Shown here: piece after piece, positions 1,847 through 22,387 of the stretch
How positions within the stretch are numbered: the first letter of the stretch is position 1
How the letters are laid out: each line of letters begins with the position of its first letter
Translations under genes and position numbers: made by a program
IMG/VR virus record: IMGVR_UViG_3300021378_000169
Location: 1-23,224 of that record
Reading direction: 5' to 3' (one strand)
Source of the DNA: a virus
DNA: 23,224 nucleotides
Notes under the pieces: model-generated
Told to the model about the DNA's origin: nothing
Seen by the model: only the letters and a program-made list of their open reading frames with translations
The model's database searches: none

Positions 1847-3397
1847 TTAAATCACAAGGTAAGGGTTGTCTTCGCCAGAATCCTTCACCCAAACCACACC
1901 AGAAACCACATCCGCATTCCATTCAGGATCCAAAACCTGCATTGATTTAGGAACAAACTTGGTTTTACGCACACCCTCCATAGCTGCAGGTGCAGGTTGA
2001 TGAAGCACAGCATCATGCATGATTGCGAAAGCAGCCACATCGTCAGCCAAATGAGAATTCCACCTGCCAGGGGCATACACCTCCTCAACGGTTGTCGCCT
2101 TATGGGCATCAAAAGCTGGAGTGTTAGCAGGCAACCTGTACAAGCCCTGCTCGATAGCGGAGATGTATTCAACCAGCATGGTGGTCCTAGCCCTACCCAC
2201 CATCACAATCTTTCGGGCACGTTCGTCAATAAGGTCATTAACCACATTGCCGATACCTGTACCGTCATGGGCAGCAACAGCCTGATAGTTGTTGAGAACC
2301 GTGTTGAACATTTCAGCCATTTCAGGCCAAGGTTTACGGTTCACGCGACGTAAATACACAATTCGATGAGGCTTAATATCTGTTCTCGCCACCACAATCA
2401 CCGTTTTATCAGCCTCTTTAGCCCAGTCAGCACCTACCGCATACCAGCCATCATCCCTAGGCTCCTCAAACACCCATTCATCATCTGAACCTGCATGACG
2501 CTGATCAACCACATCCATGTGAATGAAGTACTCGTTAAGTTTGGCTAAATCAAACGCCCTTGACCCACCAGCAGGCTCCCCCAGCTCGTACTCAACACGG
2601 AACAGTTCCGAAGGGACAGAGCGTCTTTTACGCTCAATAAAGGCAGGATCCATCCAGCCAGAAGGGTTCTCCTCAGTCTTTAACACCTCACGAAAACACC
2701 ACGTTCGAACAGGTAAACCCTTTTTTAAGGCGTCATCGCGAACCTGTTGAAAAGTGCCTACAGGGTTCTGCCAAGTAGAGGATGCAACAACCATTTCATC
2801 AATTTCAATACCCCTGGCATTAGGTTTCTTCATCGCCTGACCCATGGCGGCGTCGTAAACCTTTTTATCCATCTCGTCGATCTCATCCAAGGCCGTCATT
2901 TGAGGGTGAGGGCCTCGAACAGTTTTCTGTGAATCAGGTAAGGGACGGATCCAGTTGCCGCCCGTGAAAGTTAACTGGGTTTGAATTGAGGCAGAAACAG
3001 CCCACGTTGGGGCTCCAGGATAAAGCAGCAGATTTTCGATATGTTCTTGGACGTTTTGTGACTGCGCCATGGAACCGCCCAGAAGGGCGACGTTGATCTC
3101 AAGGATCGCTGCCTTGGTGAGTGCTAGCAATGCCAGCATGAGGGATTTTCCCGTACCGCGGGATCCATACCAAAGTGCCCAGTTTGATTCGTTACCAAAA
3201 TATCCTTCAGCAAAAGCATCAAAAGGTGCATCGTGATCAGGACAAACTTTGATTCTTGGTATCGAAACTCCCCATAAGGTTTTAACCACCCACCACAACT
3301 CATCCTTGTTTTGAGGGGGTCTGGGTAAATAGATCCTTGGATGTATTGGGTTGCCGTTCTCATCCAACGGCAGGTTGGTTAAATCAATAACACTCAT
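1847..3397 (-). CDS. terL: Terminase large subunit (packaging ATPase/nuclease)
   Basis: This 516-aa protein drives ATP-dependent packaging of phage DNA into proheads and cuts the concatemer. The ATPase domain has a Walker A motif GSRGTGKS at residues 78-85 and a Walker B motif LDEID with D171/E172. The C-terminal RNase H-like nuclease domain has D324 in GADWAK, D378 in HDGTG and an acidic pair D452/D453 in LADDVAA. The length is normal for the family. The ATG at 3397 is the first in frame. The gene begins the leftward tail cluster. The terminase-small-like gene is more than 11 kb away on the other strand, an uncommon arrangement. Confidence 0.93.
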   Translation of the reverse strand: MSVIDLTNLPLDENGNPIHPRIYLPRPPQNKDELWWVVKTLWGVSIPRIKVCPDHDAPFDAFAEGYFGNESNWALWYGSRGTGKSLMLALLALTKAAILEINVALLGGSMAQSQNVQEHIENLLLYPGAPTWAVSASIQTQLTFTGGNWIRPLPDSQKTVRGPHPQMTALDEIDEMDKKVYDAAMGQAMKKPNARGIEIDEMVVASSTWQNPVGTFQQVRDDALKKGLPVRTWCFREVLKTEENPSGWMDPAFIERKRRSVPSELFRVEYELGEPAGGSRAFDLAKLNEYFIHMDVVDQRHAGSDDEWVFEEPRDDGWYAVGADWAKEADKTVIVVARTDIKPHRIVYLRRVNRKPWPEMAEMFNTVLNNYQAVAAHDGTGIGNVVNDLIDERARKIVMVGRARTTMLVEYISAIEQGLYRLPANTPAFDAHKATTVEEVYAPGRWNSHLADDVAAFAIMHDAVLHQPAPAAMEGVRKTKFVPKSMQVLDPEWNADVVSGVVWVKDSGEDNPYLVI

Positions 3398-4723: not shown

Positions 4724-4752
4724 TGATACATTATGTTGCTTTTTGATACATT
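4724..4752. promoter_or_regulatory. Tandem TGATACATT repeats (possible operator)
   Basis: TGATACATT occurs at 4724-4732 and again at 4744-4752, exactly 20 bases apart, or two helical turns, placing both on the same DNA face. TTGCTT (4736) with TAGGAT 18 bases downstream is a possible promoter overlapping the second copy. An operator for a phage regulator such as the RHH protein is inferred. Confidence 0.35.
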
Positions 4753-4781
4753 TATAAGATAGGATACTCGTTATCTGGGGA

Positions 4782-4799
4782 GGGGGAAAGTATGTCCTC
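4782..4799 (+). CDS. Five-codon leader ORF with very strong ribosome site
   Basis: ATG TCC TCA TTT AAT TAG encodes only MSSFN. It is preceded by GGGGAGGGGG with about eight bases of spacing, one of the strongest Shine-Dalgarno matches in the window. It lies 40 bases ahead of a rho-independent terminator and about 200 bases before the helicase gene. This resembles a leader peptide in a transcription attenuator. The purine run could alternatively be a protein- or RNA-binding site. Confidence 0.3.
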
Positions 4800-4838
4800 A
4801 TTTAATTAGGTTTTCATTTCTCTTTTCTGGTCACCAAC

Positions 4839-4870
4839 CCTTCAGGTTTCTACCTGAGGGATTTTTTTTT
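4839..4870 (+). terminator. Rho-independent terminator upstream of the replication operon
   Basis: A nine-pair stem (CCTTCAGGT with ACCTGAGGG, one G-U pair) closes a TTCT loop and is followed by A and then nine T residues. It would stop rightward transcripts starting in the control region before the helicase gene, either ending a short RNA or acting as an attenuator. Confidence 0.85.
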
Positions 4871-5002
4871 GTTATAAGACAGACACAGAAACGTGATCTA
4901 AATATGAAACATTTTGATTCATCAAGGTGCAAGATGAATCTCCCAGAACTTTTAGTTTTATTTCCTGGATTAAATCAATAAACAAACCAATAAGGAGACC
5001 TT

Positions 5003-13515: not shown

Positions 13516-13977
13516 ATGGATACTGAAACACAGGAAGAATTTTTACTGACTGAAGACGAACGCGAAGCAATAGTTGAAACGATAATCTCAGCAAGATTCG
13601 AAGAGAGCAACTTATTTCAAAAAGAAGAGTTTCATACTCTTGCTTTAACTTTGCAAGATCAAAGAGCAAGAGATTTAGTGATATGGGAAATGTGTCGATT
13701 AAAACTCGACGAAAGAAATTATGTTTTCAAAACACTAAAATTAATGACAGAAAATGTCACAATGGTCGAAGCCCCTCACGCGTGGTCTGCTTACGCCGTG
13801 GCTCTGTGGATAGATGGTCAAACACCTGAAGCTGACACGATCTCTCGTTTAATTCTAAAAAGCCATCCTTTACACAAAATGTCATTTCTTATCGCTATAT
13901 CAATCCAAACCAATTTCACTTCCGAAACGTTCATAGAAACAATGAATTCTATGGAAAGAGATCAAGTAAGTGAATAA
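13516..13977 (+). CDS. Hypothetical helical protein, possibly DUF4192-like
   Basis: AAAAGGAG precedes ATG 13516 at a good distance. The 153-aa product is acidic at its N-terminus (TETQEEFLLTEDEREAI) and helical throughout. Its second half (AYAVALWIDGQTPEADTISR, ILKSHPL) recalls the C-terminal repeats of DUF4192 proteins found in actinobacteria and their phages. The likeness is partial and the assignment weak. It overlaps the RuvC gene by eight bases, so it belongs to the replication/recombination operon. Confidence 0.6.
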   Translation: MDTETQEEFLLTEDEREAIVETIISARFEESNLFQKEEFHTLALTLQDQRARDLVIWEMCRLKLDERNYVFKTLKLMTENVTMVEAPHAWSAYAVALWIDGQTPEADTISRLILKSHPLHKMSFLIAISIQTNFTSETFIETMNSMERDQVSE

Positions 13978-20515: not shown

Positions 20516-20594
20516 GCCACCACCAGGGGTGGCACAACCAATAAATCAGGGCCAGATTCCGCGGGTGCAACCGCATAAGGGGTCTGGCCCTGAT
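20516..20594 (+). promoter_or_regulatory. Folded RNA leader of the DUF932 gene
   Basis: Two hairpins precede the gene. The first pairs GCCACC (20516-20521) with GGTGGC (20528-20533). The second is a perfect 12-pair stem, ATCAGGGCCAGA (20545-20556) with 20583-20594, enclosing an inner GCGG/CCGC hairpin. No T-run follows, so neither is a normal terminator. A translational control element or processing site is inferred. Confidence 0.55.
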
Positions 20595-20621
20595 CACTCT
20601 ATAAGGAGATGGAAAAAGTAT

Positions 20622-21617
20622 ATGTCACACGAGATAGAAACAATCAACGGCAAGTCAAGTTTCTTTGCAGTACGCGAACCAGCATGGCATCAACTAGGCC
20701 AAATCGTAGAAAATACACAAACAAGTAATGAGGCATTAGAGCTTGCTGGTTTGAACTACACGGTCTACAAAAGCAAAGAACCAATCATGTTTAAGCATGA
20801 TCAGATTATTGGCGGTGTACCCAATATTTACGCAACATACAGGCAATGGCCTAACAATAAAGTTGATGGGCTTGGTGCAGTAGGTGAAAATTATCAAGTT
20901 TTTCAAACCTACGAAGCAGCTGAATTTGTCGAAGCCATAACTGACCAACACAAGCAAGCAATTTGGGAAACTGCTGGTTCACTGCGTAACGGGAAACAGT
21001 TTTTTATGACCATCAAATTGGGTGAAGAATTCGACATAAAATCAAATGAAGATAAAGCAGAAACGTGGATGGTGGTGGCCTCAAGTCATGACGGTTCTAT
21101 GGCATTGACTGTTTACATCACAAGAATCCGTGTTGTGTGTGCAAACACCTTAACGTGGAGTTTAAGTGAAGCCACCAACGTGTATAAGGTCAAGCACACC
21201 TCTAATGCGCAAGCTCGCGTGGCAGATGCCAGGGCAGCTATTGAGTTGGCATGGAGGGGTCAAGATCCTTTTGCCCACGAAATGGAGTTACTCATGAATA
21301 CATCAATCACAAACAGCGACTTTGATCGAGTCGTGGCAGGACTATTCCCTGTTGATGCAGATGAAATGTCCAGCACAATGGTGACCTCACGGGTAAATAA
21401 AATCAATGAGATCTCTGATTTGTATTACGCCTCACCAACTGTGGGTAAATTTACCGGAACAGCCTATGGACTGTGGAATGCTGTCAGCGAATATGAGCAA
21501 TGGATTGCCCCAACTAAAGGAAAATTAGGCTCATCTGACCGCCAAATAAATGTTGCATCACGCAATGTTTTTGAGTCCCCTAAAACCCTTTCAAACAAAG
21601 CTCTGGCACTTCTTTAG
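20622..21617 (+). CDS. DUF932 phage/plasmid-like protein
   Basis: This 331-aa protein shows hallmarks of the DUF932 family (also known as phage/plasmid-like protein): SFFAVREPAWHQLG near the start, VGENYQVFQTYEAAEFVEA, GKQFFMTIKLG, SHDGSMALTVYITRIRVVCANTL, and a helical C-terminus. Members are widespread on phages and plasmids; biochemical function is unsettled. Start ATG 20622 has AAGGAGA upstream at a rather long distance. An in-frame GTG at 20529 lies within the leader hairpins and is rejected. It begins the right-hand gene cluster. Confidence 0.85.
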   Translation: MSHEIETINGKSSFFAVREPAWHQLGQIVENTQTSNEALELAGLNYTVYKSKEPIMFKHDQIIGGVPNIYATYRQWPNNKVDGLGAVGENYQVFQTYEAAEFVEAITDQHKQAIWETAGSLRNGKQFFMTIKLGEEFDIKSNEDKAETWMVVASSHDGSMALTVYITRIRVVCANTLTWSLSEATNVYKVKHTSNAQARVADARAAIELAWRGQDPFAHEMELLMNTSITNSDFDRVVAGLFPVDADEMSSTMVTSRVNKINEISDLYYASPTVGKFTGTAYGLWNAVSEYEQWIAPTKGKLGSSDRQINVASRNVFESPKTLSNKALALL

Positions 21618-21626
21618 AGCAAGGGC

Positions 21627-21700
21627 GTGTAGGGCGACCTGTGCTTTAGATGGTTTAGAGCATTATGGTCACCCTACACTTTGTAGGAGACCAGGCCTAC
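21627..21700 (+). promoter_or_regulatory. Switch-like RNA structure after the DUF932 gene
   Basis: GTGTAGGG (21627-21634) pairs with CCCTACAC (21672-21679); GACC/GGTC extends the stem past one mismatch and an inner TGCT/AGCA helix caps it. The 3' arm can instead pair as CCTACA with TGTAGG (21682-21687), which itself can pair with CCTAC (21696-21700). Such mutually exclusive helices are typical of RNA switches. No T-run is adjacent. Confidence 0.5.
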
Positions 21701-21877
21701 GGTTTAAGGGTACTGAAGCCAGCGTGCTTGTGCACAAAAATTGTAGATAGATCACGGCGTGTCATAATGCGTAATTAAAGCAATTCTGATACCTTATGTG
21801 CACGTTGTTATTCCTCCTTGGGCGCGGTGTTTGGGGCCCGATTCTCCCCCGTTTCGGGTCCCATTCACATTAAATGG

Positions 21878-21906
21878 TTGCATCAAAATGTTTAATAATG
21901 TACAAT
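21878..21906 (+). promoter_or_regulatory. Promoter for the structured RNA
   Basis: TTGCAT (21878-21883) and TACAAT (21901-21906) are separated by exactly 17 bases, close to the primary-sigma consensus. The predicted transcript start at about 21913 coincides with the first helix of the RNA. The dyad ATGTAC-AATAA-GTACAT (21898-21914) overlaps the -10 and start site and may be an operator. Confidence 0.65.
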
Positions 21907-22000
21907 AAGTACATATGGCGAGGGCAGGAAACTGTCTAAAACCATATGAAACTCCCTCACGGAGTAGCCCGCAAGAGCAGGCGAAGTGAGAGATAAAAAC

Positions 22001-22026
22001 AGCCTTTCAGCACCCGCTGAAGGGCT
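22001..22026 (+). terminator. First terminator of the structured RNA
   Basis: An 11-pair stem (AGCCTTTCAGC with GCTGAAGGGCT, one G-U pair) closes an ACCC loop and is followed by TATTTCATTT. The T-tract is interrupted, so termination may be partial. Confidence 0.65.
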
Positions 22027-22038
22027 TATTTCATTTAT

Positions 22039-22066
22039 GCCTCATCCACATCGGATGGGGCTTTTT
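22039..22066 (+). terminator. Second terminator of the structured RNA
   Basis: A nine-pair stem (GCCTCATCC with GGATGGGGC, one G-U pair) closes an ACATC loop and is followed by TTTTTCTATTT. This is a standard rho-independent terminator, 19 bases before the next gene. Confidence 0.85.
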
Positions 22067-22084
22067 CTATTTATGGAGGTAACA

Positions 22085-22387
22085 ATGAGCAACGTCATAG
22101 CCTTCCCAAAGGCATCACAAGACCCGTTTAGCCTAGAAGAATATGAAGCAATTTTTGGCGATCAACCCCTCATAACCATTAACCAAAAGATTCAAGCAGC
22201 TCACCAAGCATTAGTGAGTTACTGCGGCGGGGACCCGTCAGAAGCCGGAACATACGGCATTCAAGCAGCTGCAAGTGACCTTTTTATCGACCTACTACAC
22301 CTGGTTGATCACTACGAAATTGATCTCAAGACTTTTGTTAGAAGTTCAATAAAAACTTTCAAAAACGAAATATGGCACGAGCAGTGA
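22085..22387 (+). CDS. Hypothetical helical protein (100 aa)
   Basis: GGAGGTAACA immediately precedes ATG 22085, one of the best ribosome sites here; an upstream in-frame ATG lies within the RNA and is rejected. The product begins MSNVIAFPKASQDPFSLEEY and is mostly helical (INQKIQAAHQALVSY; AASDLFIDLLHLVDHY). No family is recognised. It lies just after two terminators, so its expression may depend on readthrough or antitermination. The 3' end overlaps the next gene. Confidence 0.7.
   Translation: MSNVIAFPKASQDPFSLEEYEAIFGDQPLITINQKIQAAHQALVSYCGGDPSEAGTYGIQAAASDLFIDLLHLVDHYEIDLKTFVRSSIKTFKNEIWHEQ

Follow-up and report, generated by a model that had tools for sequence, protein, structure and literature searches.

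The interval 3′ of a DUF932 gene in the phage DNA analyzed here specifies a predicted structured RNA that has its own conserved promoter and terminator, lies at the equivalent site in three related phages, and shares its 5′ hairpin with leaders behind other promoters. We give about even chances to the interpretation that this element is the antitermination leader of a short early operon in a temperate actinobacterial phage. The window, that is, the whole stretch of DNA that was analyzed, comprises positions 1–23,224 of the IMG/VR virus record IMGVR_UViG_3300021378_000169 (23,224 bases). Family matches of its proteins include WhiB, DnaB, DNA polymerase III alpha, and an integrase; the WhiB gene points to an actinobacterial host, and we read the window as a temperate actinobacterial phage of a little-known family. 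The terminase (1847–3397) has many relatives in IMG/VR and a single distant match among 50,697 GenBank phages. The RNA locus (21878–22066) is situated between the DUF932 gene and a gene for a 100-aa protein, with the following features.

20529–21617, + strand: DUF932 gene (PF06067, E 1.8e-46), 5′ of the RNA in all four phages
21878–21906, + strand: candidate promoter TTGCAT-N17-TACAAT, assigned from sequence, with the 17-nt spacing kept in the related phages G003, G009, and G010
21912–21948, + strand: 5′ module, P1 (21912–21918/21942–21948) around P2 (21922–21937, GAAA loop); z of −5.6 on its own; recurs after other promoters
21953–21993, + strand: core domain, in both the minimum free energy (MFE) and the centroid structure, with CCTCA, AGTAGC, and GCGAAG invariant in the four phages
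22001–22033, + strand: terminator 1, hairpin 22001–22026 plus T-run, kept at the equivalent site in the homologues
22039–22066, + strand: terminator 2, hairpin 22039–22061 plus T-run, in the window only and absent in the homologues
22085–22387, + strand: first downstream gene, 100 aa, weak match to phrog_3963

The non-coding stretch between the DUF932 gene and the promoter (21617–21870) is itself structured (z −4.1) and partly kept in G003. It contains a hairpin directly 3′ of the DUF932 stop codon, GGAGACCAGGCC, and, adjoining the promoter on its upstream side, a stem (GGGGCCCGA..TCGGGTCCC) that encloses CTCCCCCG.

The promoter recognized in a preliminary description of the locus is present, with TTGCAT at 21878–21883 and TACAAT at 21901–21906 separated by 17 nt, and places the predicted transcription start at about 21912. 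Its agreement with the consensus is weak (8/12, under the cut-off of the promoter scan), but matching hexamers with a spacer of exactly 17 nt occupy the equivalent site in all three related phages.

The fold of 21905–22075 has an energy of −70.2 kcal/mol (z −7.2 relative to shuffles), and the terminator-free segment 21911–21998 retains a z of −4.9, with 0 of 200 shuffles folding as well, in keeping with the earlier claim of structure beyond chance; the pre-terminator fold in G003 and G009 equals shuffles (z 0.2). Helix P1 (CATATGG/CCATATG), helix P2 with its GAAA loop (GGGCAG-GAAA-CTGTCT), and hairpin P4 (21967–21982) are all found as originally proposed. The loop-to-tail pseudoknot between CTCAC (21956–21960) and the complementary GTGAG (21986–21990) is rejected. 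In the MFE and centroid structures of 21911–21998, these segments instead form a nested helix, P5 (TC.CTCAC, 21953–21960, paired with GTGAG.GA, 21986–21993), that encloses P4, and the ACTCC/GGAGT hairpin that the pseudoknot requires is poorly kept in the homologues (65% of cells, with the innermost pair in the window alone), as against 75% for P5 and 83% for P4. Between P5 and P4, AGTA (21963–21966) lies opposite GAA (21983–21985) in an internal loop. The AGUA/GAA of this loop, invariant in the four phages, is what we take to be a bulged-G (loop E, sarcin-ricin) signature. A coding interpretation of the region is also rejected, as the homologues, on inspection, do not preserve the GTG frame at 21986.

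Conservation was traced through the terminase and the DUF932 protein. The terminase led to G003, which is colinear with the window, has a DUF932 protein 59% identical to that of the window, and carries promoter, core, and terminator behind its DUF932 gene. Alignment of the terminase yielded 80 contigs; the RNA is present in two (G009 and G010) of ten further records with DUF932 at 23–30% identity. The four sequences align across the promoter, 5′ part, core, and terminator, and all three relatives keep the RNA at the equivalent site 3′ of DUF932 with the core CCTCAY..RAGTAGC..GCGAAG; the core (class I) was found solely at this locus. The full-length sample consists of four sequences from three lineages. 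Absence of covariation had been named beforehand as evidence against the RNA; two P1 pairs are changed on both sides, which favors the RNA weakly, and helix retention elsewhere is low. Four sequences yield too little covariation to back a statistical claim, and support for the predicted structure comes from sequence conservation and context. At the site that the RNA occupies in the window, G012, G013, G015, G016, and G023 carry, behind DUF932, a short cassette made up of promoter, hairpin (TTCAAGC..GCTGCCTGAA), and terminator (L122–L126, L131).

Searches for relatives among described RNAs place the element outside Rfam, as the preliminary description had anticipated when it matched no known riboswitch or ribozyme. 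No Rfam 15 family reached its gathering threshold in the window, and the strongest match below threshold (17.6 of 49.5 bits) is located on the terminators. When the RNA was compared with phage and plasmid sequences by BLAST, terminators or chance matches alone were returned, and a pattern scan of viral contigs recovered G003 as a real match and seven others as chance. The RNA was not found in a scan of DUF932-bearing bacterial genomes or in other DUF932 phages (34% identity), and 50 family contigs searched with a covariance model gave no homologues beyond those already known. Within the openly accessible literature, a search on antitermination and leader RNAs of actinobacterial phages yielded no description of the element.

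A second class of structured leader RNA was observed in these phages at G013:43204- (L171), G016:4509- (L165), G023:45533- (L159), and G050:64471- (L164), with a conserved GGAUAACC–hairpin–CCGGACAAACC and its own promoter and terminator, 5′ of a small gene and a gene of ∼330–390 aa. Its outer stems seem to covary (GUCU/AGAC vs CGGGA/UCCCG), and Rfam gave no match in L159, L171, L164, or L155.

Both hairpin terminators of the preliminary description were called on the + strand. Start codons follow the terminator after 18 nt in the window and after about 25–30 nt in G003, G009, and G010, and the 18-nt gap that separates terminator 2 from the gene at 22085 contains no promoter. Because gaps of this length are too short for another promoter, the downstream genes would be read from upstream or through the terminator. 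The suggestion of an attenuated leader for the gene at 22085 is therefore plausible, given the conserved promoter, the terminators, and the promoterless gap. The gene itself varies: the 100-aa protein of the window shares only a short N-terminal similarity with the 134-aa protein of G003, G009 has an unrelated 129-aa protein, and G010 has a DUF4192 protein. This variation indicates that the RNA forms an independent unit, a cassette separable from the gene behind it. A 153-aa protein encoded elsewhere in the window (13516–13977) weakly matches the end of DUF4192, the domain found behind the RNA in G010. A late-operon leader, an idea that arose from a weak virion-protein match (phrog_5838), was rejected because G003 has its large, terminase-bearing gene block on the opposite strand.

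The preliminary description treated the RNA as a single site and missed the repetition of its 5′ hairpin (P1/P2, the first ∼40 nt) after other promoters, including that of the dnaB leader in the window. The hairpin occurs twice more in G009 and once more in G010, each time preceding a terminator and then another gene. When the module matrix was trained on the DUF932-locus RNAs and nothing else, these extra copies ranked directly after the training site in their genomes, and the dnaB leader of G022 took the top rank among 73,544 positions. The dnaB leader of the window contains the following features.

4736–4765, + strand: promoter-like TTGCTT-N18-TAGGAT, assigned from sequence and weak by consensus; the crude promoter scan chose another pair
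4777–4797, + strand: second copy of the hairpin module, rank 3 of 46,396 positions with the matrix from other phages
4838–4870, + strand: strong terminator CCCTTCAGG..CCTGAGGG-A-T9, between the module and dnaB (5003)

The covariance-model match for this copy is weak (4771–4810). Among the dnaB leaders surveyed for the hairpin, those of the window (4736–4870) and of ten related phage records, inspection placed a purine-rich GGG...TGYCC hairpin just past the promoter position in all examined leaders except that of G050, the crude promoter finder having chosen other hexamers in some, the window's included. A strict form of the motif is present in 8/10 dnaB leaders against 0.44% of random 45-nt windows, a contrast that overstates the case because the motif was defined after the leaders were seen. 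Matrix and motif were both partly chosen post hoc; the matrix rank in G022 is free of the motif's bias. A terminator-like hairpin was called in the module-to-dnaB interval of 8/11 records, and the long-looped terminator-like stems in the dnaB leaders of G013, G016, and G023 were identified by eye only. What the dnaB leaders share with the DUF932-locus RNA is the hairpin, not the second domain or core. Also 5′ of dnaB in the window, at 4909–4955, TTGATTCATC..GATGAATCTCCCAGAACTTTT resembles a stretch at 59.0 kb in G009 (L133:2050–2000, minus strand) that likewise ends in CCCAGAACTTTTT.

Lambda nut and HK022 put share a layout in which the series promoter, 5′ hairpin, terminator, and early operon is repeated within a genome, and the correspondence of the element with this layout suggests an antitermination leader. 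At lambda nutL and nutR, a promoter, a short RNA hairpin, a terminator, and early genes follow one another at several operons, with the N protein as the factor. The phages studied here show the same order at several operons of a temperate phage, with a hairpin of boxB size. The letters that open a few leaders (GCTCTTACAC in G016) may be boxA-like, and serve as a lead only. A search of ten small unknown proteins of the window, poor at finding N, recognized nothing N-, Q-, or NusG-like, and the scanned proteins of the window, which is a fragment, include no NusG-like family. The terminated short RNA upstream of an operon also recalls lambda Q and pR′–tR′ (6S RNA), but here the genes are probably early and the conserved element is RNA rather than DNA.

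In HK022, two ∼70-nt put RNAs of two stem-loops each, located behind the promoters of two early operons (putL directly behind its own), allow polymerase to pass terminators with no need for a phage protein (PMC9378689). Read-through at put proceeds by way of the β′ zinc-binding domain of RNA polymerase. The element resembles put in having a 5′ end that is predicted to fold into two stem-loops (in the window, P1/P2 and P5/P4; weaker in the homologues), terminators downstream of the 5′ RNA, and related copies at two or more operons (DUF932-distal and dnaB), although only the hairpin module and not the second domain is repeated. It differs in phage group and host and in having ∼90 nt before the terminator; the sequences were compared via Rfam only. 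Bacillus LoaP passes an intrinsic terminator using a small leader hairpin upstream (PMC12691694). Such a hairpin 5′ of an intrinsic terminator is likewise present here, but LoaP/dfn has a UNCG hairpin and a NusG paralogue, and no such protein was seen in this case.

In the proposed mechanism, transcription would start at ∼21912 and the nascent RNA would fold at once, the P1/P2 module first and then the domain of P5, the bulged-G-like loop, and P4. Polymerase would then meet one or two intrinsic terminators 20–30 nt 5′ of the first gene, where by default most transcripts would end as an RNA of ∼120–155 nt. By itself or together with a factor from phage or host, the folded leader may bind the elongating RNA polymerase, which would then read through the terminators into the operon. 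Through the copy in the dnaB leader, one factor or state could switch several early operons in coordination. Gene order suggests that the transcript is early.

The same anatomy could serve other functions. The terminated transcript of ∼120–155 nt might itself be the product, a trans-acting sRNA with a protein or the mRNAs of phage or host as its regulatory targets, and we think this unlikely while noting what speaks for it: a conserved promoter and terminator of its own, doubled terminators in the window, and a core better conserved than the neighboring gene, which is swapped between phages. An sRNA does not account for a gene 18 nt past the last terminator that has no other promoter, and a 5′ half common to the leaders of other operons such as dnaB is a better fit for a cis element.

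Alternatively, the P5/P4 core may sense a metabolite or a phage protein and set the operon terminator. Such an attenuator would explain the invariant AGUA/GAA internal-loop bases and CCUCA as well as terminators immediately 5′ of the gene, and within the same gene block, G013, G016, G023, and G050 carry another conserved internal-loop RNA. We regard it as quite improbable, in that inspection by eye revealed no conserved pairing of core with terminator that could act as an antiterminator (the core AGCCC matches the terminator in the window and G009 but not in G003) and the downstream genes differ between phages. Least credible, and very unlikely in our judgment, is a plain 5′ stabilizing hairpin accompanied by leaky terminators that do no more than tune transcription or insulate it. 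P1/P2-type 5′-end hairpins of varied sequence do follow many promoters of these phages, yet the GGG...TGYCC sequence of the module is kept beyond what pairing demands, and the core has invariant unpaired bases.

The antitermination leader could represent a new form of RNA-based processive antitermination, with a put-like leader unrelated in sequence to known ones acting at the dnaB and DUF932-distal operons throughout the family, a wider proposal that we put forward tentatively and consider doubtful. The antitermination reading, if correct, would provide a compact conserved candidate that is testable with a single reporter, and it would join a family almost without terminase relatives among GenBank phages to lambda-style early gene control.
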